NCBI GenBank assembly: GCA_020072565.1
Contig: JAIQGI010000036.1
Location: 1-64,000 of the forward strand
Length of the DNA stretch: 64,000 nt
From: Terriglobia bacterium
Lineage (GTDB): Bacteria > Acidobacteriota > UBA6911
Direction of reading: 5' to 3'
Shown here: positions 598-14,851 of the stretch, piece by piece
Layout of the letters: every line of letters starts with the position of its first letter
How positions within the stretch are numbered: position 1 is the first letter of the stretch
Notes under the pieces: generated by a model
Told to the model about the DNA's origin: nothing
Seen by the model: only the letters and a program-made list of their open reading frames with translations
The model's database searches: none
Program-made: the position numbers and the translations under genes

Positions 598-1833
598 ATG
601 GCCGATTTCTATCAAACGGGTTGCGTGACCACGCTGCACCGGCTGAAGCCCGGAAGCGCCGCAAGGATGGAAGATGAATTGCGGGAAATTGCCAGGCATG
701 TGTCCATTGCGCTTGTTCTGCCCGCGCTCTACTCGGAGTTCGAAAGCCCAGCCATGCGCCGGATCGCCGATGAACTGGCAGATGTTCCCTACCTTCGACA
801 TATCGTTGTCGTCCTGGCTCGCGCCGGCATCGATGAATATAGAAAAGTGCAGCAGTTTTTTGCGGATTTTCCTCAGAAGATCACAATTCTGTGGATCGAC
901 AGCCCTGAGGTTCAGAATCTCCTGGAGATCCTGCAGGCACGCGGCCTGTCCGCAGGTCCCGATGGCAAAGGCAGATCGTGCTGGCTTGCCTACGGATATC
1001 TACTGGCGACGGGCGACTGTGACGTAATCGCCCTGCACGACTGTGACATCGTCAATTACCAGCGGGATCTTCTCAGCCGTCTCGTTTATCCTGTTGCCAA
1101 TCCTCAACTTGCTTTCGAATTCTGCAAGGGCTACTACGCTCGTGTCACCGATCGGATGCATGGGCGGGCAACGAGGCTTTTTCTGACGCCATTGGTTCGA
1201 GCTCTCAAGGACATGGCGCCGGTGGCTCCGTTCCTCCAGTTCCTCGACAGCTTCCGATACGCCTTGGCCGGGGAGTTTTCGATGCAGGCGAATCTTGCGC
1301 GGGCTAACCGCATCCCCTCCGACTGGGGATTGGAGGTGGGAGTGCTGGCTGAAGTATTCAGGAATTGCGCCGTGGCTCGCGTATGCCAGGTGGATCTCGC
1401 CGAAACCTACGAGCATAAACATCAGGCCATATCAAAAGATGATCCGTCCACGGGACTGAGGCGAATGACATGCGAGGTGGCGAAATCCCTGCTTCGAACA
1501 CTCGCCGGGGAAGGGCTTGTTTTCACCAAGGATCACTTCAGAAGCCTTCAGGTCCGCTACGTGCGGATGGCCGAAGACACCATTGGCAGGTATTACGCGG
1601 ACGCCATGTTGAATGGCCTGGAATTCGACCGTAATGAGGAGGAGGCAGCCGTAGCGGCATTTGCCGAGAGCCTGCGCCAGGCCACCCAGGAGTTTGTGGA
1701 GTCTCCGCTGGGGAATCAGCAGATTCCCAATTGGAATCGGGTTCTCGCGGCAATCCCCGATATCCTGGGACTCCTGCGTGACAGCGCGGTAGCAGTCATG
1801 CCGAAAGTTCAGAGCTATGCCTACCGAAACTAA
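598..1833 (+). CDS. gpgS: Glucosyl-3-phosphoglycerate synthase-like glycosyltransferase
   Basis: A 411-residue GT-A glycosyltransferase that most resembles the glucosyl-3-phosphoglycerate synthases. These join glucose from a nucleotide sugar to 3-phosphoglycerate, the first step to the compatible solute glucosylglycerate. Residues 121-134 (PDGKGRSCW...) fit the nucleotide-binding loop, 147-151 (HDCDI) is the metal-binding DxD-type motif, and 271-276 (YEHKHQ) is a plausible His metal ligand region. There is no signal peptide, so it should act in the cytoplasm. The start is set by a strong GGGAGGA ribosome site. It overlaps the next glycosyltransferase by 17 bp, and a matching phosphatase lies at 3836-4756, which supports the pathway. 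Mannosyl-3-phosphoglycerate synthase is the main alternative; substrate cannot be read from sequence. Confidence 0.72.
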   Translation: MADFYQTGCVTTLHRLKPGSAARMEDELREIARHVSIALVLPALYSEFESPAMRRIADELADVPYLRHIVVVLARAGIDEYRKVQQFFADFPQKITILWIDSPEVQNLLEILQARGLSAGPDGKGRSCWLAYGYLLATGDCDVIALHDCDIVNYQRDLLSRLVYPVANPQLAFEFCKGYYARVTDRMHGRATRLFLTPLVRALKDMAPVAPFLQFLDSFRYALAGEFSMQANLARANRIPSDWGLEVGVLAEVFRNCAVARVCQVDLAETYEHKHQAISKDDPSTGLRRMTCEVAKSLLRTLAGEGLVFTKDHFRSLQVRYVRMAEDTIGRYYADAMLNGLEFDRNEEEAAVAAFAESLRQATQEFVESPLGNQQIPNWNRVLAAIPDILGLLRDSAVAVMPKVQSYAYRN

Positions 1834-3193
1834 AGTGCCTGATCCGGACTTTCTTCCTCGGGAAGCATTCGATGCCGTTGAGAAAATCCGGCAGGCCGAT
1901 GTCGTGGTAGGAATCCCGAGCTATAACAACGCGCAAACCATCGGGCATGTCGTAAGAGCGGCTCAAGCCGGGCTGGAAAAGTACTTTCCGCAGCTCCGGG
2001 CCGTTATCATCAACTCCGATGGCGGTTCTTCGGACAGCACGCGCGATGCAGTGCTCGCCAGTCGCATGGATTCCTCACAACTCCTATTCCTGAATACTCC
2101 GCTGTTCCCCGTCCATCGGCTCTCTTTTCCATACCATGGAATCCCCGGCAAAGGGAGCGCGTTCCGTCTCATATTTCAGATGGCTGCCATGCTGGGCGCG
2201 AGAGGCTGCGTTGTCATCGATTCGGACCTGCGCTCAATCACACCGGAATGGATTGACCTGCTGCTGCGACCGGTGCTGCATGCCGAATTCGATTTTGCGG
2301 CTCCCTTCTATCACAGGCACAAATACGATGGAACCATCACAAACAGCATCGTCTATCCATTGACCCGCGCCCTCTATGGATTGCGGGTGCGGCAGCCCAT
2401 TGGGGGAGACTTTGGACTCTCTTCCCGGATGCTGAAACGATATTTGTCACGGGAGGATTGGCAGGGGGACGCAGCGCGTTATGGCATCGACATCTGGATG
2501 ACCACAATCGCAATCGCGGAGGGCTTTCGCGTCTGCCAGAGCTTTCTGGGGGCGAAACTGCATGATCCGAAAGATCCCGGCGCGGACCTGAGCGAGATGC
2601 TTCACCAGGTTGTAGGAAGTGTTTTTGCCCTCATGCAGGAATACGAATCCGTATGGAGACGAACCAGGTCGAGCAGGGATGTCGATCTCTTTGGATTCCG
2701 CTTCGGGGTCGGCCTGGATCCCGTCGAAGTCAATACCGGCAGGATGCTCGGAATGTTTCAGCGGGCCAGCCGCGAACTCAAAGAAGTCTGGGCCCTTGCC
2801 TTGAACCCGTCAACCTTGAGCGAACTCGTGGGGATGGGCGCAGCATTGGACAGCCAGTCCATGAATGGATTCCACCTTGACGACCAACTGTGGGTGCGAG
2901 TCGTGATGGACTTCGCGGTTGCCTGGCGGAAACGGCCAACAGAACGAAGCCACTTGCTGCGTTCCTTAACAGCTCTCTATCTGGCCAGGGTTGCGTCGTT
3001 CGTGCTGGAATCAAAGGAGCTTGTCTCGGATCAGGTCGAAGACAGGATCGAGCGTCTCTGTCTCTGCTTCGAGGAATTCAGACCATATCTGATGTCCAGC
3101 TGGGACTCCGCAGTGGATCGCGCTTCTCCCAAAGCGCAGGTGCCGGAGAGGGCAAAAAATAGCTGTGGAGCCCAAGCCGTGTTGGAGGGATAA
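1817..3193 (+). CDS. Second GT-A glycosyltransferase, possibly mannosylglucosyl-3-phosphoglycerate synthase
   Basis: A 458-residue family-2-like glycosyltransferase. Residues 28-75 form the nucleotide-sugar fold start (VVVGIPSYNN...SDGGSSDST), 111-113 is GKG, 135-137 is the DSD metal motif, and D225 in YGIDIWMT may be the acceptor-side acid. The C-terminal 150 residues look helical and have no motif I know. It overlaps the gpgS-like gene by 17 bp, so the two are almost certainly co-translated. In Petrotoga, a second transferase adds mannose to glucosyl-3-phosphoglycerate before dephosphorylation; the gene order here suggests the same step, but that is inference. A cytoplasmic enzyme acting on a related glycoside is equally possible. 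Confidence 0.7.
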   Translation: MPTETKVPDPDFLPREAFDAVEKIRQADVVVGIPSYNNAQTIGHVVRAAQAGLEKYFPQLRAVIINSDGGSSDSTRDAVLASRMDSSQLLFLNTPLFPVHRLSFPYHGIPGKGSAFRLIFQMAAMLGARGCVVIDSDLRSITPEWIDLLLRPVLHAEFDFAAPFYHRHKYDGTITNSIVYPLTRALYGLRVRQPIGGDFGLSSRMLKRYLSREDWQGDAARYGIDIWMTTIAIAEGFRVCQSFLGAKLHDPKDPGADLSEMLHQVVGSVFALMQEYESVWRRTRSSRDVDLFGFRFGVGLDPVEVNTGRMLGMFQRASRELKEVWALALNPSTLSELVGMGAALDSQSMNGFHLDDQLWVRVVMDFAVAWRKRPTERSHLLRSLTALYLARVASFVLESKELVSDQVEDRIERLCLCFEEFRPYLMSSWDSAVDRASPKAQVPERAKNSCGAQAVLEG

Positions 3194-3197
3194 GAGC

Positions 3198-3902
3198 ATG
3201 ATTCAACTAGCTGAAAAAATCGCGGGTGACACGATGGAAAGGCTGTCCCGCCTGATGACGAACCATTTGCCCGGCTTCCTGGCCGCGCTCTTCATCCTCT
3301 TGGTGGCATGGGGCATTGCGGCAGCCGTTCATATACTGCTCACACGGATCTTCCGTGGCGCCCGCATCGATCGGTTCTTGAGACGCAGCGGCCTCGCCTC
3401 GCTCCTCCCGGGAGAAGGCTCGCCTCGTGCGACTCTGATGGCGGCGAAGGGCGCATACTGGGCGATTCTGACTGCCGGTTCGCTTCTTGCACTAAGCGCG
3501 TTCGACACCCAGATCACGTCACGCATGATCGAATGGGTATTGCTGATGGGGCCGAAGTTTCTCGTCGGCGCTGCGATCCTGCTGGCGGGAGTGTGGATCA
3601 GCCGTTATCTTGGGCGCAGCGCGCTCGTCTGGGCATTCAATGAGGGTGTCCCGAACTCCCGGAGGATAGGCCAGGTTGTACGAGTCGTGGTGATCCTTGT
3701 TACGGTCGTCGTGGCCGCGGATTTTCTGAATTTTGCCAGAAACGTGTTCCTGGCTTCTTTTGTTCTGATAGTCGGTGGAGCCATTCTGGCCGGCGCACTG
3801 GCCTTGGGTTTAGGGGGGAGGAAGGCCGTGGAGCGCTACCTTGAGGGCAAGGAATCCGAGATTCCGGATAAGCCGGAAGAGGCCGTTTGGAAACACCTGT
3901 GA
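3198..3902 (+). CDS. Small membrane protein of the conserved-TM-helix / mechanosensitive-channel type
   Basis: A 234-residue inner-membrane protein with about five hydrophobic segments (near residues 25-47, 80-98, 112-133, 158-175, 180-200). It ends in the GALALGLGGRKAVERYL region typical of proteins with the conserved TM helix found beside or inside MscS-type channels. It lacks the cytoplasmic beta domain of true MscS, so it is a minimal relative. The ATG at 3198 is chosen because GGAGGG at 3184-3189 precedes it; an upstream in-frame start would overlap the previous gene. Its place after two osmolyte transferases suggests a role in volume or solute release, which is inference. Its 3' end overlaps the opposite phosphatase by 67 bp. 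Confidence 0.7.
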   Translation: MIQLAEKIAGDTMERLSRLMTNHLPGFLAALFILLVAWGIAAAVHILLTRIFRGARIDRFLRRSGLASLLPGEGSPRATLMAAKGAYWAILTAGSLLALSAFDTQITSRMIEWVLLMGPKFLVGAAILLAGVWISRYLGRSALVWAFNEGVPNSRRIGQVVRVVVILVTVVVAADFLNFARNVFLASFVLIVGGAILAGALALGLGGRKAVERYLEGKESEIPDKPEEAVWKHL

Positions 3903-4756
3903 AATGCAAATGGCCCCACCTTCCCGGTCATTTCATTGGAGGCCGTTTCAGTCGGTGCTGCGTGCTTGTCAAGAACATCCAGAACGGCCTGGCTCCAACC
4001 TTCCGGACCTGCCTGATCCGTCACGCGCGCTCGAGGAAGGGCGGATTTCAGCTTTCCAGCTGCCTTGGATTTGATGATAACCGGGATGTCCACGCAGCGA
4101 AGAAAACCCAGATCGTTCATTCCATCCCCCAGCCCCACGGTTATAATGGTTTCGAAGGTCGAGCGGTAATAGTAGGTGAGAAGGCAGACGCCATGGGCTT
4201 TGTTTCCATGCCCCATAATGTGATAAAGGCGTCCGCCGCGGGTCCAGTTTTTCCCGCGGCATTTGATGGCCTCCAGGAGTTCATCGCCGGGCGGATCAAG
4301 GATTTCGAACGGTTCGTCATATTCTCTGATCTTTGCCAATCGGGCTTGCTCAAGGGAAAGACCGTATTTCCGGCCTATTTCGTTGGCGCTCATATCGCGA
4401 AAGCACCGAACCCGGCAGCCGGTTTCTCGGGAGGCCTGCCGAAGTGTTTCGACGAGATCATCATAGGGGATGCCGAACTCGAAGATTCCATAGGTATCGC
4501 GTTGATCCGGCGCGCCGAAGCGGGGCGGGAAGTATCCGTCGGGAACATAGAGAGCGCCGCCATTCTCGACAATGAAAGGGTGCGGGTTGCGGAGAGTTGA
4601 GCGCCAGTATTCGACCTCAGCACGAGTCTTGCTGGTGCAGAACACGAGAGGGAGGCCCAGCTCGTCTACCCAGCGCAGGGCCTCCCGGGCAGCGTCCGCG
4701 GAATATGCGGACTCATCAAGGAGGGTGCCATCGAGGTCTGTGAACAGGATGATCAT
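3836..4756 (-). CDS. HAD-IIB phosphatase, mannosyl/glucosyl-3-phosphoglycerate phosphatase family
   Basis: A 306-residue cytoplasmic phosphatase expected to remove the phosphate from glycosyl-3-phosphoglycerate to release the finished solute. From the ATG at 4756, residues 7-11 are the catalytic DLDGT, VFCTSKTR is HAD motif II, GHGNKAHGV holds the motif III lysine region, and GLGDGMNDLGFL is motif IV. The C2 cap with the ENGG stretch is typical of the family. An earlier in-frame start would add 42 unlikely residues. The last 40 or so residues exceed the usual length and overlap the channel-like gene convergently. It faces the histidine-kinase gene across about 77 bp, so the two share a divergent promoter region. 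Confidence 0.85.
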   Translation of the reverse strand: MIILFTDLDGTLLDESAYSADAAREALRWVDELGLPLVFCTSKTRAEVEYWRSTLRNPHPFIVENGGALYVPDGYFPPRFGAPDQRDTYGIFEFGIPYDDLVETLRQASRETGCRVRCFRDMSANEIGRKYGLSLEQARLAKIREYDEPFEILDPPGDELLEAIKCRGKNWTRGGRLYHIMGHGNKAHGVCLLTYYYRSTFETIITVGLGDGMNDLGFLRCVDIPVIIKSKAAGKLKSALPRARVTDQAGPEGWSQAVLDVLDKHAAPTETASNEMTGKVGPFAFHRCFQTASSGLSGISDSLPSR

Positions 4757-4833
4757 GATCTCAAGATAGCGATGTGGCCGCCTGGTGTCGATCCCACGGA
4801 GGCCGTACTTTTGAACAGAAAGGACACGACCGA

Positions 4834-6189
4834 GTGAGGAATGCGATCTGGCAGAATACCAAGGTGATTCTCGTTCTTGCATTTGGGAGCCTCCTGCTGA
4901 TTATAACGATCCTTGGAATCGGCGCGTACCGCAGGAGCGACCGCATCTACCGCGATGTGACATTCATTCAGGATGCATACCAGCAGCGGACAGTCGTTCT
5001 CAACGACATCCAGTCGGACATTTATTTGTCCGCCATCCTGATCCGGGATTATCTGCTCGATCCAGCGGTGGTGACGGGAGCCGAGCACCGGCGTCAGTTG
5101 CTCGAGACTCGCCAATCACTCGAGAAACGCCTCAAATCCCTGGAACAGCTTGCCACATTGCAGGACCGGGAAGCGCTTCAACAGCTTGGCCGCAAATTGG
5201 AGGGTTATTGGGATGTCATGGATCCCGTGTTCGATTGGACTCCTGAACGCAAGGCCGCAGGCAGCTTCTCTTTTCTAAGGAAACAGGTGCTTCCGCGGCG
5301 CACCGCTGTCCTGGAAATGACACAGAGAATCAACGAAATAGATGCCGCCAGCCTGAAGCAAGAGCAGCAAAGGACAGCGGCGAGTTGGGAAGCCTATCGT
5401 AAGTACTTGAAATTGCTGTTCGCCTATGCGCTGAGCCTTGCCCTCTTCACAGCTGTAATGAGCATCTATCGCCTTTCGACGCTTGAGAAACGCGCCGATG
5501 AACATCGAATGCGTCTTGCGGAAGCAGAGCAGGGGCTCCGTTTGCTTTCCCAGCGGCTCGTTCATGCACAGGAGGAGGAGCGCAGGTCCCTTTCGAGGGA
5601 GCTTCATGACGAAATCGGCCAGATGCTGACAGGCATCCGAATGGTGTTCATCAACCTCGAACAGCTTGGCTCGGCACCGGAGCCTGGCTATGGGGGCCAG
5701 CTTGCCGAGGGGAAGGGGCTTACGGACAGGACAATGCAGATGGTTAGAAACCTGGCGCTCGGATTAAGGCCATCCATGCTTGATGATCTGGGTTTGGTGC
5801 CCGCGCTCGAGTGGCAGGCACGCGAGTTCTCGCGGAGAAGCGGCACTCCGGTCGAGTTGAAGACCGATGGCTCACTGGAGAGCATCCCGGACGAGGTAAG
5901 TACGTGCATATACAGAATCGTGCAGGAATCCCTTACCAACTGCGCCCGGCACTCCAGGGCAAACACGGTTCGCATCGACCTTCATGGCGGAGTCACGGAA
6001 CTCTCCTTGACCGTCCGTGATGATGGTGTGGGATTCGACGCTCAACAAATCAAAAGCCAGGGCTTTGGACTGATAGGCATCCGTGAACGCATTCGTGAAC
6101 TGGCGGGGACGGTGACAGTTGATTCGCAGCCGAGCAAGGGGACGGTCCTTAAGGCAGTGATCCCTCTAAAAATGGAGGTGTCCGCATGA
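4834..6189 (+). CDS. NarL-type sensor histidine kinase
   Basis: A 451-residue membrane sensor kinase. Hydrophobic helices near residues 11-31 and 193-212 bracket a mostly helical extracytoplasmic sensor domain. The HisKA_3 dimerisation box carries the phospho-acceptor His258 in RELHDEIGQ. The ATPase domain shows the N box (QESLTNCARHS), G1 (DDGVGFD) and G2 (GFGLIGIRERI). The GTG at 4834 is preferred because a GAAAGGA site lies just upstream; a GTG at 4774 is possible. It overlaps its response regulator in an ATGA junction at 6186-6189. The ligand is unknown; the osmolyte and chloride genes around it suggest a salt, osmotic or envelope signal. Confidence 0.9.
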   Translation: MRNAIWQNTKVILVLAFGSLLLIITILGIGAYRRSDRIYRDVTFIQDAYQQRTVVLNDIQSDIYLSAILIRDYLLDPAVVTGAEHRRQLLETRQSLEKRLKSLEQLATLQDREALQQLGRKLEGYWDVMDPVFDWTPERKAAGSFSFLRKQVLPRRTAVLEMTQRINEIDAASLKQEQQRTAASWEAYRKYLKLLFAYALSLALFTAVMSIYRLSTLEKRADEHRMRLAEAEQGLRLLSQRLVHAQEEERRSLSRELHDEIGQMLTGIRMVFINLEQLGSAPEPGYGGQLAEGKGLTDRTMQMVRNLALGLRPSMLDDLGLVPALEWQAREFSRRSGTPVELKTDGSLESIPDEVSTCIYRIVQESLTNCARHSRANTVRIDLHGGVTELSLTVRDDGVGFDAQQIKSQGFGLIGIRERIRELAGTVTVDSQPSKGTVLKAVIPLKMEVSA

Positions 6190-6836
6190 GCGCAATCCGT
6201 ATATTGGTGGCTGATGATCATGGTGTCGTTCGCAGGGGACTGCGCCTGATTCTGGAACGGCACCAGGGCTTCGAGGTCGTCGGCGAAGCGGCAGATGGCC
6301 GGGAGGTCGTGCGGCTTGCAGAAGAGCTATTACCATCGATTGTAATCATGGATGTGGGCATGCCGCATCTCAACGGCATTGATGCGAGCGCTCAGATCAT
6401 TCACAGGAACCCACGGGTTGGCATCATTATCCTCAGCATGCACTCGGATGAGGGCTACATTGTCCGGGCGCTCAGCGCAGGCGCAAAAGGATACCTGCTC
6501 AAAGAGTCTTTGGAAGAGGACCTCGTCCAGGCAGTCCGCATCGTCGCGCAGGGGCGCCCGTTTTTCAGCCCGAGGATCACACAGACGCTGCTGGATGATT
6601 ACGTCCGTCAGCTGCGTCAGAAAGGGCTCCAGGATTCATACGACCTTCTCACCGACCGGGAGAAGGAAGTCCTGCATCTCATCGCGGAAGGCAAGTCCAA
6701 CAAAGAGGTGGCGACGATGCTGGACTTAAGTGTGTACACGGTTGAAACTCATCGAACCAATCTCATGCAGAAGCTCAACTTGCACAATACGGCCGAGATT
6801 GTTTTATACGCAGTGCGTAAAAAAATAATTTCGTGA
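6186..6836 (+). CDS. NarL/FixJ-family response regulator
   Basis: A 216-residue response regulator. The receiver domain (1-125) has the acidic pair D10-D11 and the phospho-acceptor D56 in IVIMDVGMP. The LuxR-type helix-turn-helix covers about 154-205 (LTDREKEVLHLIAEGKSNKE...). It is translationally coupled to the kinase gene through a 4-bp ATGA overlap, so the two are partners. Likely targets are the nearby ClC-TPR gene or the osmolyte operon, but I see no clear repeated binding site upstream of either. Confidence 0.93.
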   Translation: MSAIRILVADDHGVVRRGLRLILERHQGFEVVGEAADGREVVRLAEELLPSIVIMDVGMPHLNGIDASAQIIHRNPRVGIIILSMHSDEGYIVRALSAGAKGYLLKESLEEDLVQAVRIVAQGRPFFSPRITQTLLDDYVRQLRQKGLQDSYDLLTDREKEVLHLIAEGKSNKEVATMLDLSVYTVETHRTNLMQKLNLHNTAEIVLYAVRKKIIS

Positions 6837-6849
6837 CACTCCCGAATTT

Positions 6850-6999
6850 ATGGAAGAGGGCCAAAGGGTCTCGCCAGCTGCAGGAATACCTGAGACCTGG
6901 CAACAGGCAAATCCGGATTTGATAATCGAATGGGACAATTCAATAGAGGAGCAGGCGGCTTGGATTGAAACTTCGTCAGGCTTCACTGAATCTCTATGA
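6850..6999 (+). CDS. Possible 49-residue leader or small ORF
   Basis: An open frame of 49 codons (begins MEEGQRVSPAAG, ends SGFTESL) lies between the response regulator and the ClC gene and overlaps the ClC start in an ATGA junction at 6996-6999. It is acidic and has no membrane segment. It has no clear ribosome-binding site, which is the main argument against it. If real, it could couple translation of the ClC fusion to upstream reading. I do not recognise a family. Confidence 0.25.
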   Translation: MEEGQRVSPAAGIPETWQQANPDLIIEWDNSIEEQAAWIETSSGFTESL

Positions 7000-9917
7000 T
7001 GCATCAGGATATGCACGTGAACGAAAACCGCAGTGGAGTGATCGTGAAAGCACCGCAGCCGAGCGCGCGGGGTTCCTGGCAATCGGTGAGAAGCTGGACC
7101 GATGCGCGGAGAATTCGCCAGCACGAGGACAAAGTCCTTTTCATTCTTACGCTCATGATCGGCGCTGTCGTCGGCCTGGTGGTTGTGGCTTTCATTCTGC
7201 TCACCGAGAACCTTGGTTCGCGCATGTATCCGGCCGGAGGCGCCGCCTGGCGTCGGCTCGTGGTGCCCCTCTTGGGAGCATTGATCACCGGCTATCTGTT
7301 GAAACGATATTTTCCCAATGCCCGCGGCAGCGGCATCCCTCAAACAAAGACCGCCATGTTTTTGCGGGGAGGAGTGATCAAGTTCCGTACCGTTCTGGGA
7401 AAGTTCGGCCTATCATCGGTTTCCCTGGCGAGTGGCATAGCCCTTGGGCGTGAGGGGCCATCGGTCCAGGTCGGCGCCGGAATCGCATCGACGCTCGGCA
7501 GGCAGCTCGGGCTCAGTCCTGAGACGATCAAAGCCCTTGTGCCGATCGGATCGGCCGCGGCGCTTTCCGCCGCCTTCAACACTCCTATCGCCGCCGTTCT
7601 CTTCACTCTGGAGGAAGTCATGGGCGATCTTCACGCCCGTGTGCTTGGCGCCATCGTCCTGAGTTCGGCAACGTCGTGGATGGTCCTCCACCTTCTACTT
7701 GGCGATGAGCCGTTATTTCACGTCCCGGCATATCAGCTGGTAAACCCACTCGAATTCGGGTTTTATGCCGTTCTGGGTCTCATCGGCGGCATAGTCTCGG
7801 TATGCTTCGTAAAGCTCCTGCTCTGGCTTCGCAAATACTTTCTCCGCATGCCGGCCTGGACGGAATACATCCAGCCGGCGGCCGGCGGGCTTCTGGTCGG
7901 CGTTATGGGCTGGTTCGTGCCGGATGTCCTCGGCGTCGGCTACAACCACGTGAGCGAAGCTCTCAACGGCCGGCTTGCGCTGGAGGCAATGGCACTGCTC
8001 GTGGGGCTGAAACTTGTTGCCACAGCCGGCTGCTATGCTTCCGGCAATGCCGGCGGAATCTTTGGTCCGAGCCTGTTCATCGGTGCGATGATGGGCGGCG
8101 CTTTCGGAGGCGGGGCGCATGTTCTCCTGCCTGATTATACGGGCAGCGTCGGCGCCTATGCGCTTGTTGGGATGGGGGCGACGTTTGCCGGCATCATACG
8201 CGTGCCGATGACGTCCGTGATCATGATTTTTGAGATCACACGCGATTACTCCATTATCGTGCCGCTGATGATCGCCAATCTCATCAGCTACTTCATTTCA
8301 AGTCGCCTTCAGAAGGAACCGATATACGAAGCTTTGCTGCACCAGGACGGTATCCACCTCCCGATCGCAGCCAGGGAACGCGAGGAGTCGCCGCGCGTGA
8401 GCCGGGGAGTCCGCCCTGCTGAAGAAATCCTTTCGTCAAATGAAACGGTCGAGCAAACTTTGAAGACAATCCACCGAGAAATATCCGCGTGGCCAGTTAT
8501 AGATGGAAATCTCCTCCTGGGGATGGTCACCCTCGCCCAACTCGACGAAGCCACGCGGCAAGGAATAGGCTCCAATAGGATAGGAGACCTGCTTCCGCTT
8601 CCGGATCCAAAGGTTGACCCGCCGGCAGAGGTATTCCCACACGTGCATGCGGATCATCCGCTGGAAACTGCAGTGCGGCGCATGGCACAGACCGGTTTAG
8701 CTGTTCTTCCCGTTGTAAGCCGCTCAAATCTTCGCGAATTGCTGGGCGTCATAACCATGAATGATGCCTTAGCTGTCTACAAACGTGAAACCAATGGAGC
8801 AATTGTCGGGCAGCCCGCGCAGGGGGCAACAGAGTCGTCAATCCCAATTCGAGGAGGCCTTTTGGCGGTTCTGTTAGTGATGGTGGCGCTTGCCGGTTTC
8901 CTGGGCTACTTCTACCATGGCCAGCGCACAGCCCGAGCCGAACAGAACTTTCAACAAGGCACCGAATTATTGGATGGAGGACAGTTTCCAGAAGCGATCG
9001 AACGATTCCGTAGTGCGCTCTCCATCTCTCACAGTAATTCGGACAGGCTGGCTCTCGGCCTCGCGCTCGTGAAGGCTGGACGTCTGAATGAAGCAGCGAT
9101 CTATCTTCGCGAATTGATCCGGATCGAACCCAGCAGCAGTCCGGCAAACCTGGGACTTGCCCGAATCGCAGTCCAGGAAGGCAATGCCCAGGAGGCTGTG
9201 GAATATTATCACCGTGCCATCTATGGTTCCTGGCCTGAACAAACCAGCACAAACAAAGTTCAGACTCGCATCGAGCTGATAGAGACTTTGGGCAAGCTTG
9301 GCCGCAGGACGCAAGCCCAAGCTGAATTGCTGTCGCTTATGGCAGAGATGCCTGAGGATATAACGATCCGGAAGCAGGTGGGTGGGCTTCTACTGGATTA
9401 CGGACTAGCGAAGGAGTCCACTCAAGTCTTCCAGGGGCTGCTGCAGAAACAGCCGAGAGATGCGGAGGCGTATGCGGCACTGGGCCGGGCCGAATTGAGT
9501 TTGAGCAATTACCCGGCTGCGGAGGCGGCGTTCAAGAATGCACTCCGCTGGAATCCAGGTGATCCGGCGTCCAAGAAACAGCTGGATACGGTCCAGCAGA
9601 TTCTCATTCTCGATCCAACCTCGCACGGATTGACTTCTTTGCAGCGATATGAGCGAAGCCGCAAGCTGATGGAAGCTGTTCTCGGCTCGCTGACCCAATG
9701 CGTTGCTACGGCTCCAACCGCAATTCCACCATCAGTAACCGACCTTTCCGATGAGGGCCGCAAAAATCTGCTTCATCGCGGCCGTCCGAGTTCCTACGGC
9801 GATGCCACGGAGACCAACATATCCCTGGCTGAACGGATGTGGAAAGCTCGTTCGGAGGTATGTGGTCTATCTTCGGATCAGGCACTCGCCAAGCTGATGA
9901 CCCAGCTCTCCAAATGA
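6996..9917 (+). CDS. ClC chloride channel/antiporter fused to CBS pair and TPR domain
   Basis: A 973-residue fusion protein. Residues 45-440 are a ClC transporter with GSGIP (111-115), GREGP (151-155, gating Glu153), a double Glu at 206-207 where antiporters have the proton glutamate, and GGIFGPSLF near 355. Two CBS domains follow (about 470-615), typical nucleotide-sensing units in ClC proteins. Then comes an extra transmembrane helix (about 626-650) and a TPR region (about 655-870) with a polar tail. The retained glutamates predict Cl-/H+ exchange rather than a channel. The extra helix should place the TPR part outside the inner membrane, perhaps in the periplasm. I know of no common ClC protein built this way. 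The start may be ATG 6996 or ATG 7011. Confidence 0.9.
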   Translation: MMHQDMHVNENRSGVIVKAPQPSARGSWQSVRSWTDARRIRQHEDKVLFILTLMIGAVVGLVVVAFILLTENLGSRMYPAGGAAWRRLVVPLLGALITGYLLKRYFPNARGSGIPQTKTAMFLRGGVIKFRTVLGKFGLSSVSLASGIALGREGPSVQVGAGIASTLGRQLGLSPETIKALVPIGSAAALSAAFNTPIAAVLFTLEEVMGDLHARVLGAIVLSSATSWMVLHLLLGDEPLFHVPAYQLVNPLEFGFYAVLGLIGGIVSVCFVKLLLWLRKYFLRMPAWTEYIQPAAGGLLVGVMGWFVPDVLGVGYNHVSEALNGRLALEAMALLVGLKLVATAGCYASGNAGGIFGPSLFIGAMMGGAFGGGAHVLLPDYTGSVGAYALVGMGATFAGIIRVPMTSVIMIFEITRDYSIIVPLMIANLISYFISSRLQKEPIYEALLHQDGIHLPIAAREREESPRVSRGVRPAEEILSSNETVEQTLKTIHREISAWPVIDGNLLLGMVTLAQLDEATRQGIGSNRIGDLLPLPDPKVDPPAEVFPHVHADHPLETAVRRMAQTGLAVLPVVSRSNLRELLGVITMNDALAVYKRETNGAIVGQPAQGATESSIPIRGGLLAVLLVMVALAGFLGYFYHGQRTARAEQNFQQGTELLDGGQFPEAIERFRSALSISHSNSDRLALGLALVKAGRLNEAAIYLRELIRIEPSSSPANLGLARIAVQEGNAQEAVEYYHRAIYGSWPEQTSTNKVQTRIELIETLGKLGRRTQAQAELLSLMAEMPEDITIRKQVGGLLLDYGLAKESTQVFQGLLQKQPRDAEAYAALGRAELSLSNYPAAEAAFKNALRWNPGDPASKKQLDTVQQILILDPTSHGLTSLQRYERSRKLMEAVLGSLTQCVATAPTAIPPSVTDLSDEGRKNLLHRGRPSSYGDATETNISLAERMWKARSEVCGLSSDQALAKLMTQLSK

Positions 9918-13153: not shown

Positions 13154-14851
13154 CTATTTTTTGAGGAATGTCAGAGGCGCCTGGCCTCGGCCGCCACGTC
13201 CTGACGCATCCAGCATTATAAAAACCTCCATGGATGCCTGCAAATCGAGGGTGCCTGAAAACCGGCCGCGACCCTGCGCCTGAAGGCTGACCTGATAAAC
13301 GTCCTGTGCGAGGCCGTGGACCTCGAAATGGCCATCGGTGCTCGTAAAGGTGTAGTTCCTTTCGCTTTTACCGGTGGTGGACTGGAAGGTCAGAGTGAAT
13401 CTCTCAACCGCTGACCCGCGATTGTCGCTTATGGTCCCGCGCAGGGACAGGCCGGCCTCAAGCACCAGGGTCTGCAGCTGATTGGAAGGCCGCAGGCGAG
13501 TCACGAGAATCTGGTAATCCCGGTGAGTCACGGTGAGCTGATATTGTGCGTCGGAGGCATTCAGAATCTGGAACCGTCCGTCGGCATCCGTGGATGTGAC
13601 TGCCACGCTTGTCCTCCGTACGTTCCCTCGCTGTGTCATTGGTAAACTGCCTGTCGTGCTCATCCGCCCCGGACCGGGATTGACAGGCTGGAAAGGCATG
13701 CGATTTCCCTTCTGGTCCTGGATGACGTAGGTCACTTCTGCATCGGCTACGAGCTCCCCTTTTTGATTGACGACCGTACCTCGGATCTGGGGCCCTGGAT
13801 CCAGGCTGAAATCCAGAATGGTCTCTTTATTGGAGGAGATCGAGATCATCGCCCGGCTGTTCGTGGAATCGACGAAGCCTTCGGCCACGCACCTGACAAG
13901 GTAGGACCCTTCGCGCATTCTGGCAATTCTGTACTGTCCCTTTTTGTCGGATTGCACGAAGGAGAGAGGCCTGAAATCGTTGGTATCAAATAAATAAATT
14001 TTTGCCCCAGGCAACGGTAAATGAGAGGAGTCGGTCACAATGCCGGAAAGAGTCTCGGATGTTCGTGCCGGTCTCATTTGAACGACTACTGCGCTCTCTG
14101 CGGGAATGGTGACGGCGACCATCCCTGTCGAATCAAATCCAGGGTGGTGGGTCTCAATGAAATAACGCCCGGGTCTCGCCACGTCACTAAACGTAAACAC
14201 GCCTTGTTGATCGCTGATCACTGTGTCGATAACAGTGGGCCGGTCGTATCCTTGGTTCAGCTGCACGATGGCATCGGGTACCCCTGCAGCGAGATTGTCC
14301 ACCACGCGCCCGCGCAACGACAAGGACGGTGAGAGCAGGATCCGAATGTCGTAGTACGGCCGCGTAATCACAAACGAATCATCCCGATAGGATTCGAACC
14401 CCTCAGCCACGACCTGTATGCCATAACGATAGGAAGGAGGAGCCACCACTTCGAAGGACCCATCCGGCGCTGTCGTCTTTTCCATGACACCCGAAAGCGA
14501 TGAGTACGCGATCAAACGCACGGTCGCATGGTCCACGGGCTTGCGGTTGGCCTCATTCAGCACAATCCCCTTGAAAACAACCTCCGTATACCAACTTTCC
14601 GACGACGAGGTATCAGGCACACCCGGCAGCCCTGCGGCCGAAGCTTTATTGAGTTTTTCATTACTTGACTGCAAATCTCCGGAAGCTCGGGAAACTGTCT
14701 GCAGTGATTTAGCAGTCCCATTTTGCGTTGTGCGGCTTCGGTCCGGGAATAAACGGCTGCGGAGTGGAGAATACACCAACAGGATCAGGGCCAGAATGAC
14801 TAGCAGCCACATCCAGACAACAGACTTGCTCTTATGCTTGGTCGCCGGCAT
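13154..14851 (-). CDS. Membrane-anchored protein with carboxypeptidase-regulatory-like repeats
   Basis: A 565-residue protein with one N-terminal membrane helix (about residues 10-29) followed by a Ser/Thr-rich linker. Then come about five beta-sandwich units of the carboxypeptidase-regulatory type, each built around LRGxVxDxxGxxVxxAxV..., a DADGRF or DKKGQY turn, and a YxVxVxAEGF strand. Clear units start near residues 92, 180, 264, 358 and 485. It should sit on the inner membrane with the repeats in the periplasm and may bind carbohydrate or protein. No catalytic domain is visible. The gene is intact although its neighbours on both sides are remnants. Confidence 0.8.
   Translation of the reverse strand: MPATKHKSKSVVWMWLLVILALILLVYSPLRSRLFPDRSRTTQNGTAKSLQTVSRASGDLQSSNEKLNKASAAGLPGVPDTSSSESWYTEVVFKGIVLNEANRKPVDHATVRLIAYSSLSGVMEKTTAPDGSFEVVAPPSYRYGIQVVAEGFESYRDDSFVITRPYYDIRILLSPSLSLRGRVVDNLAAGVPDAIVQLNQGYDRPTVIDTVISDQQGVFTFSDVARPGRYFIETHHPGFDSTGMVAVTIPAESAVVVQMRPARTSETLSGIVTDSSHLPLPGAKIYLFDTNDFRPLSFVQSDKKGQYRIARMREGSYLVRCVAEGFVDSTNSRAMISISSNKETILDFSLDPGPQIRGTVVNQKGELVADAEVTYVIQDQKGNRMPFQPVNPGPGRMSTTGSLPMTQRGNVRRTSVAVTSTDADGRFQILNASDAQYQLTVTHRDYQILVTRLRPSNQLQTLVLEAGLSLRGTISDNRGSAVERFTLTFQSTTGKSERNYTFTSTDGHFEVHGLAQDVYQVSLQAQGRGRFSGTLDLQASMEVFIMLDASGRGGRGQAPLTFLKK

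Follow-up and report, generated by a model that had tools for sequence, protein, structure and literature searches.

The window analysed here (64,000 nucleotides, positions 1 to 64,000 of contig JAIQGI010000036.1, Terriglobia bacterium assembly GCA_020072565.1) includes a gene that seems to join a ClC transporter to a TPR domain in a single protein, raising the questions of whether these are genuinely parts of one gene and what a TPR domain does on the end of an ion transporter. The gene is the sole ClC gene in the 7.46-Mb assembly of this soil acidobacterium, which, judged from its kin, belongs near Bryobacterales.

The fusion gene and its counterparts in relatives

The reading frame runs from ATG to stop on the + strand without any internal stop codon, and the following parts were recognized.

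6996..9917, +, ClC-CBS-TM-TPR-Cys fusion gene, 973 aa (ORF reading, Pfam and relatives)
7125..8363, +, ClC transporter core, residues 44–456, with S112, E153, E206/E207 and Y444 (Pfam and ClcA alignment)
8388..8786, +, CBS pair, residues 465–597, the first weak and the second clear
8847..8915, +, extra membrane helix, residues 618–640 (hydropathy; also in stand-alone homologues)
8937..9593, +, TPR repeats, probably periplasmic, residues 648–866, about 220 aa (Pfam and profile matches)
9594..9914, +, C-terminal two-cysteine domain, residues 867–973, about 107 aa
9699..9701, +, Cys902 codon, invariant across aligned rows
9861..9863, +, Cys956 codon, invariant across aligned rows

A Voltage_CLC match (PF00654) at residues 94–435 (E 1.2e-96) places the core in the ClC family. 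The ClcB-like model NF002505 aligns over residues 40–598, and the scores fall short of the curated equivalog cut-offs of the ClcA/ClcB models (265 vs 350 bits for NF003640 and 286 vs 482 bits for NF002505). In an alignment with Escherichia coli ClcA, S107, E148, E202/E203 and Y445 correspond to S112, E153, E206/E207 and Y444, respectively, and all are retained. The coupling glutamates, and likewise the serine and tyrosine equivalent to S112 and Y444, are intact in all 11 fused ClCs found in this study. The presence of the exchanger-type residues (gating Glu148, proton Glu203, Ser107 and Tyr445) predicts a transporter of the H+/Cl− exchanger type.

A sequence-only reading of this DNA had described a continuous fusion without a frameshift, in which the key glutamates of the ClC core are kept and a normal CBS pair is followed by a further membrane helix and about 220 residues of TPR-like repeats. 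The single frame and the aligned glutamates bear out the first two points, as does a hydropathy of 2.41 at residues 621–639 for the helix; no 19-residue stretch in the rest of the protein beyond this helix exceeds 1.1. Though a CBS pair is indeed present after the core, Pfam detected one CBS domain (residues 548–594) when the whole protein was used, and the weaker CBS1 was seen only when the CBS region was scanned alone. The extent given for the repeats was also right, with TPR_19, TPR_16, TPR_2 and other TPR models exceeding their cut-offs at about residues 650–860 and both TPR_19 and TPR_16 present in 48 of 48 homologues, but the TPR repeats stop before the end of the protein and the two-cysteine domain that follows them had been missed. 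This domain (residues 867–973) has no Pfam match in the domain scan. It includes Cys902 and Cys956 (no other cysteine is found outside the ClC core), and in an alignment of fused and stand-alone proteins these positions are Cys in 76/76 and 75/75 rows, respectively, counting only rows that reach each position.

When the whole protein was used to search a sample of 60 related genomes, four full-length fusions (59–63 % identity) were found in the same family (G006, G008, G009 and G013). Six further fused loci (L103, L104, L105, L127, L131 and L135) are in named MAGs and were found by scanning a single genome of each species; the L104 fusion ends at a contig edge and L105 holds a run of N. Throughout, the genome samples include one genome per species, many of them MAGs, and the contig scan used a ClC-led alignment, the profile of the diverse TPR set being too variable. 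Among the nine complete fusions, mean pairwise identity is 75 % for the ClC core, 45 % for the TPR region and 40 % for the cysteine domain, and 20 % for the linker. Hence, the linker is far more variable than the parts that it joins, indicating that both ends of the fusion are maintained.

These ten additional fused loci, which come from different assemblies, rule out a frameshift or assembly artefact. Merging of two overlapping genes by a sequencing or assembly error, as might be imagined from six close relatives in which the two parts are encoded by two genes that overlap, is thus vanishingly improbable, the more so as the fused TPRs form one clade and the in-frame start codons near the junction in the window fall only inside the membrane helix. 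The same domain order, for which a search in other genomes had been proposed, therefore recurs in acidobacteria. The sequence-only reading had allowed that this might prove to be a common known family, and the combination does recur, though within one phylum, and no paper or curated family describing it was found: models in Pfam and NCBIfam match separate parts and none covers either the composite or the TPR-cysteine protein.

The TPR gene paired with ClC

When residues 601–973 were compared to 396 Acidobacteriota genomes, matches were found in 44. Five of these are fusions (the genome of the window and the four same-family genomes listed above), and 36 genomes encode a stand-alone protein of roughly 370–410 aa made up of an N-terminal helix and TPR repeats. 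In 36 of 36 cases, the stand-alone gene lies directly upstream of a ClC gene on the same strand. In the first 25 pairs, the TPR stop codon overlaps the ClC start codon by 4 nt (ATGA or GTGA) in 11, and in most of the others the ClC start is within about 30 nt of the TPR stop. The remaining three genomes include longer TPR proteins at four places without a ClC gene nearby (G204 twice, G376 and G224); these matches are weaker, the frames are 665–1021 aa, and the match starts at about query residue 42–58, mostly past the helix. That the TPR part is a generic TPR gene that became a neighbour of ClC by chance was ruled out by the stand-alone relative adjoining ClC in 36 genomes.

Starting instead from the ClC, a TPR gene was found directly upstream in 32 of the 32 genomes that have a close relative (at least 56 % identity) of the Edaphobacter ClC, adding three TPR genes that the TPR-first search had missed. 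Two of the 32 (G253 and G288; loci L214 and L215) encode a shortened TPR protein without the cysteine domain. In these two loci a second ClC-like gene is located upstream of the shortened TPR gene. In another of the 32 (G226, L079), both the TPR and the ClC genes are split by stops or frameshifts, suggesting either shared decay of the two genes or assembly errors.

The TPR protein is, then, encoded and inherited with ClC, in the 36 of 36 and 32 of 32 pairings and in the ten further fusions. As judged from gene arrangement, the stop/start overlaps and the pairing show co-translation and a shared history, rather than contact. Some close ClC relatives are without any TPR neighbour, and hence the TPR protein is not indispensable for a ClC of this lineage. 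The three non-acidobacterial ClC matches of the contig scan (two from Opitutaceae and one from Calditrichaceae) have no TPR.

Three architectures were found. In most lineages the TPR gene precedes the ClC gene, in Bryobacterales (L107–L110, L119 and L123) the ClC gene precedes the TPR gene, which is the order in the fusion, and in the third the two are a single gene in the ClC-TPR order. The ClC/TPR junction in Bryobacterales is ATGA or TAATG in six of six loci (that of L123 was read by eye from the sequence). A ClC tree puts all three architectures, and also ClCs without a TPR neighbour, into a single acidobacterial clade of 107 rows. The fused proteins group as a single clade in the TPR tree (SH-aLRT 97), which is most simply explained by one fusion event; the ClC tree requires two changes. 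A ClC-first order of the Bryobacterales type would lead naturally to the fusion.

The ClCs with a TPR gene upstream (e.g. L067, L074 and L162) also differ around the gating glutamate. In 61 of 64, the canonical G-R-E-G-P surrounding E148 is replaced by G-P-E-D-P, and Tyr445 is Phe or Leu in most; E148 and E203 are kept. To judge from these positions, selectivity or coupling could be changed in this class.

Genes that surround the fusion in the window include the following.

598..1833, +, glucosyl-3-phosphoglycerate synthase-like protein (E 2.3e-104, below curated cut-off; compatible solute)
3165..3902, +, mechanosensitive-channel-like (Msc-like) protein, kept near the fusion in G013
3836..4882, −, mannosyl-3-phosphoglycerate phosphatase (MPGP) family protein (compatible solute)
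4774..6189, +, sensor histidine kinase, directly upstream of the fusion, possible regulator
6186..6836, +, LuxR-type response regulator, directly upstream of the fusion, possible regulator

Relatives of the two-component genes are near ClC in six other loci, some of them unfused (L068, L103, L107, L123, L161 and L168). The cluster at 598–4882, made up of the synthase-like gene, a second glycosyltransferase gene and the genes for the Msc-like protein and the MPGP-family phosphatase, is likely a compatible-solute locus. In G013, the second glycosyltransferase and Msc-like genes are retained, separated from the fusion by trehalose OtsAB genes; L064, L065, L068 and L075 also have OtsA or OtsAB near ClC. 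No constant third partner gene was found across the phylum, the two-component pair occurring near ClC at seven loci and OtsA/OtsAB at five. The neighbouring genes suggest a role in osmotic or acid stress, the association with osmotic genes being seen in some loci only, several of which are closely related. Further along the window, a 565-aa protein with five carboxypeptidase-regulatory-like repeats (13154–14851, − strand) is unconnected with the fusion.

Membrane topology

In solved structures of ClC proteins that have CBS domains, these are held in the cytosol. With the CBS pair in the cytosol and one extra helix after it, the TPR repeats and the cysteine domain should be outside, and we infer that they lie on the side of the membrane opposite the CBS pair, as the sequence-only reading had also placed the TPR. 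Besides the single helix, this placement draws on the cysteine pair, on zinc ribbons and on a moderate charge bias in the stand-alone proteins. Invariance of Cys902 and Cys956 is as expected for a disulfide in an oxidising compartment, and a Cys902-Cys956 disulfide is probable. A search of this genome for VKOR as the disulfide enzyme gave no match. Zinc ribbons typically occur in cytosolic segments, and one (CxxC...CxxC) is present at the N-terminus, just before the helix, in six of 72 unfused TPR proteins (L074, L080, L139, L141, L146 and L156). In 61 proteins encoded upstream of ClC, the K/R count around the helix is 3.8 before and 2.8 after, a moderate positive-inside bias. In the fused proteins the bias is reversed (2.2 before vs 3.5 after), which would favour a cytosolic TPR part and an extra hydrophobic stretch that fails to cross the membrane. 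However, the helix is strongly hydrophobic and found in all stand-alone homologues, the cysteine pair is invariant and the zinc ribbons flank the helix on the side away from the TPR part, making a cytosolic location highly improbable.

Role of the TPR protein and its place among ClC accessory subunits

The explanation that we favour, and consider fairly probable on the gene and protein features set out above, is that a ClC H+/Cl− exchanger has been covalently joined to its own dedicated accessory (beta-like) subunit, a periplasmic TPR protein that would stabilise and/or regulate it. The ClC core would be in the inner membrane with the CBS pair in the cytosol, the extra helix would bring the chain back across the membrane, and the TPR superhelix, with a two-cysteine cap probably closed by the Cys902-Cys956 disulfide, would be periplasmic, sitting above the transporter or next to it. 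In relatives, the subunit would be a separate single-pass protein encoded beside ClC, often with the translation of the two coupled; the fusion would lock the ratio of subunit to ClC at 1:1. If the N-terminus of the subunit is in the cytosol, the C-terminus of ClC, likewise cytosolic, is the only end to which it could be attached, matching the observed order. A TPR-ClC order would link a periplasmic end to a cytosolic end, and the ClC-TPR order would need no further helix. Most likely, the subunit would stabilise the ClC dimer and/or set the working times of the exchanger from the periplasmic side, and it would act during osmotic or acid stress.

The TPR domain might bind ClC itself, a periplasmic ligand or another envelope protein, and two other roles for it in the periplasm were considered. 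The first is that of a scaffold that ties ClC to other envelope proteins or to the cell wall and does not act on ClC, in line with the possible tie between ion exchange and envelope proteins proposed in the sequence-only reading. Binding to proteins or peptides is common among TPR domains, and there is weak similarity, far below the cut-offs, to the envelope TPR proteins PilW and Tgl. However, no third gene constantly accompanies the pair across the phylum and ClC is the only constant partner. Because every stand-alone copy found neighbours a ClC gene, ClC itself is favoured as the first partner, and we regard a scaffold of this kind as unlikely. Still less likely is a role confined to assembly or stability, with the TPR protein as a built-in chaperone in the membrane that neither senses nor gates. 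The two genes are tightly coupled in translation, as are those of subunits that assemble together, which would agree with this, as would the case of OSTM1, described as making few contacts with ClC-7 in the lumen and as chiefly stabilising the complex (PMC12403049), but related ClCs manage without the TPR protein and the present data fit a regulatory role equally well.

The proposed accessory subunit can be set against several known systems. The ClC core and coupling residues are common to the fusion and to E. coli ClC-ec1 (ClcA) and the ClcB-like proteins of NF002505, but ClcA is without the CBS pair, the extra helix and the TPR domain, all three of which are found in the fusion protein. E. 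coli ClC-ec1, the model for ClC transport, works alone. The envelope proteins PilW, Tgl, CcmH/CycH and LapB share TPR repeats and many are membrane-anchored in the envelope, but the weak NCBIfam/Pfam matches to them are far below the curated cut-offs; to our knowledge, none has a two-cysteine cap or an association with ClC. Structural analogues would be OSTM1 (ClC-7) and TMEM9/TMEM9B (ClC-3/4/5), described as single-pass ClC beta-subunits with disulfide-stabilised luminal domains (PMC12403049). For the TPR subunit, too, the prediction is one membrane pass and a non-cytosolic domain held by a disulfide, in a protein dedicated to a ClC. However, OSTM1 and TMEM9 are animal proteins of another fold, and the TPR subunit has the TPR fold, is operon-paired and is also found fused to the transporter. 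No homology to them was seen, as the best 60 PDB matches of the profile were TPR-type or designed repeat proteins, and the best reading is that the TPR subunit is analogous to OSTM1/TMEM9 and not homologous with them. Barttin (ClC-K) and GlialCAM (ClC-2) are likewise accessory subunits of ClCs, but are animal proteins with different folds and no resemblance to the TPR subunit was seen.

The accessory subunits named in the published account all belong to animal ClCs, and regulation by some of them is incompletely understood (PMC12403049). No paper on a ClC-TPR protein or gene pair was found in the open-access literature. What looks new is a ClC with an apparent accessory subunit in a bacterium, the subunit being of a new type. 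Whether this is the first bacterial ClC accessory subunit, a periplasmic TPR protein with one membrane pass that is confined to this phylum, gates or stabilises the exchanger from the periplasmic side, arose independently of OSTM1/TMEM9 and was fused once, we judge to be evenly balanced. If so, the co-translated pair, together with its natural single-chain fusion, would provide a simple bacterial system for non-cytosolic control of a ClC, and the gene order would be an example of a fusion whose order is set by membrane topology.
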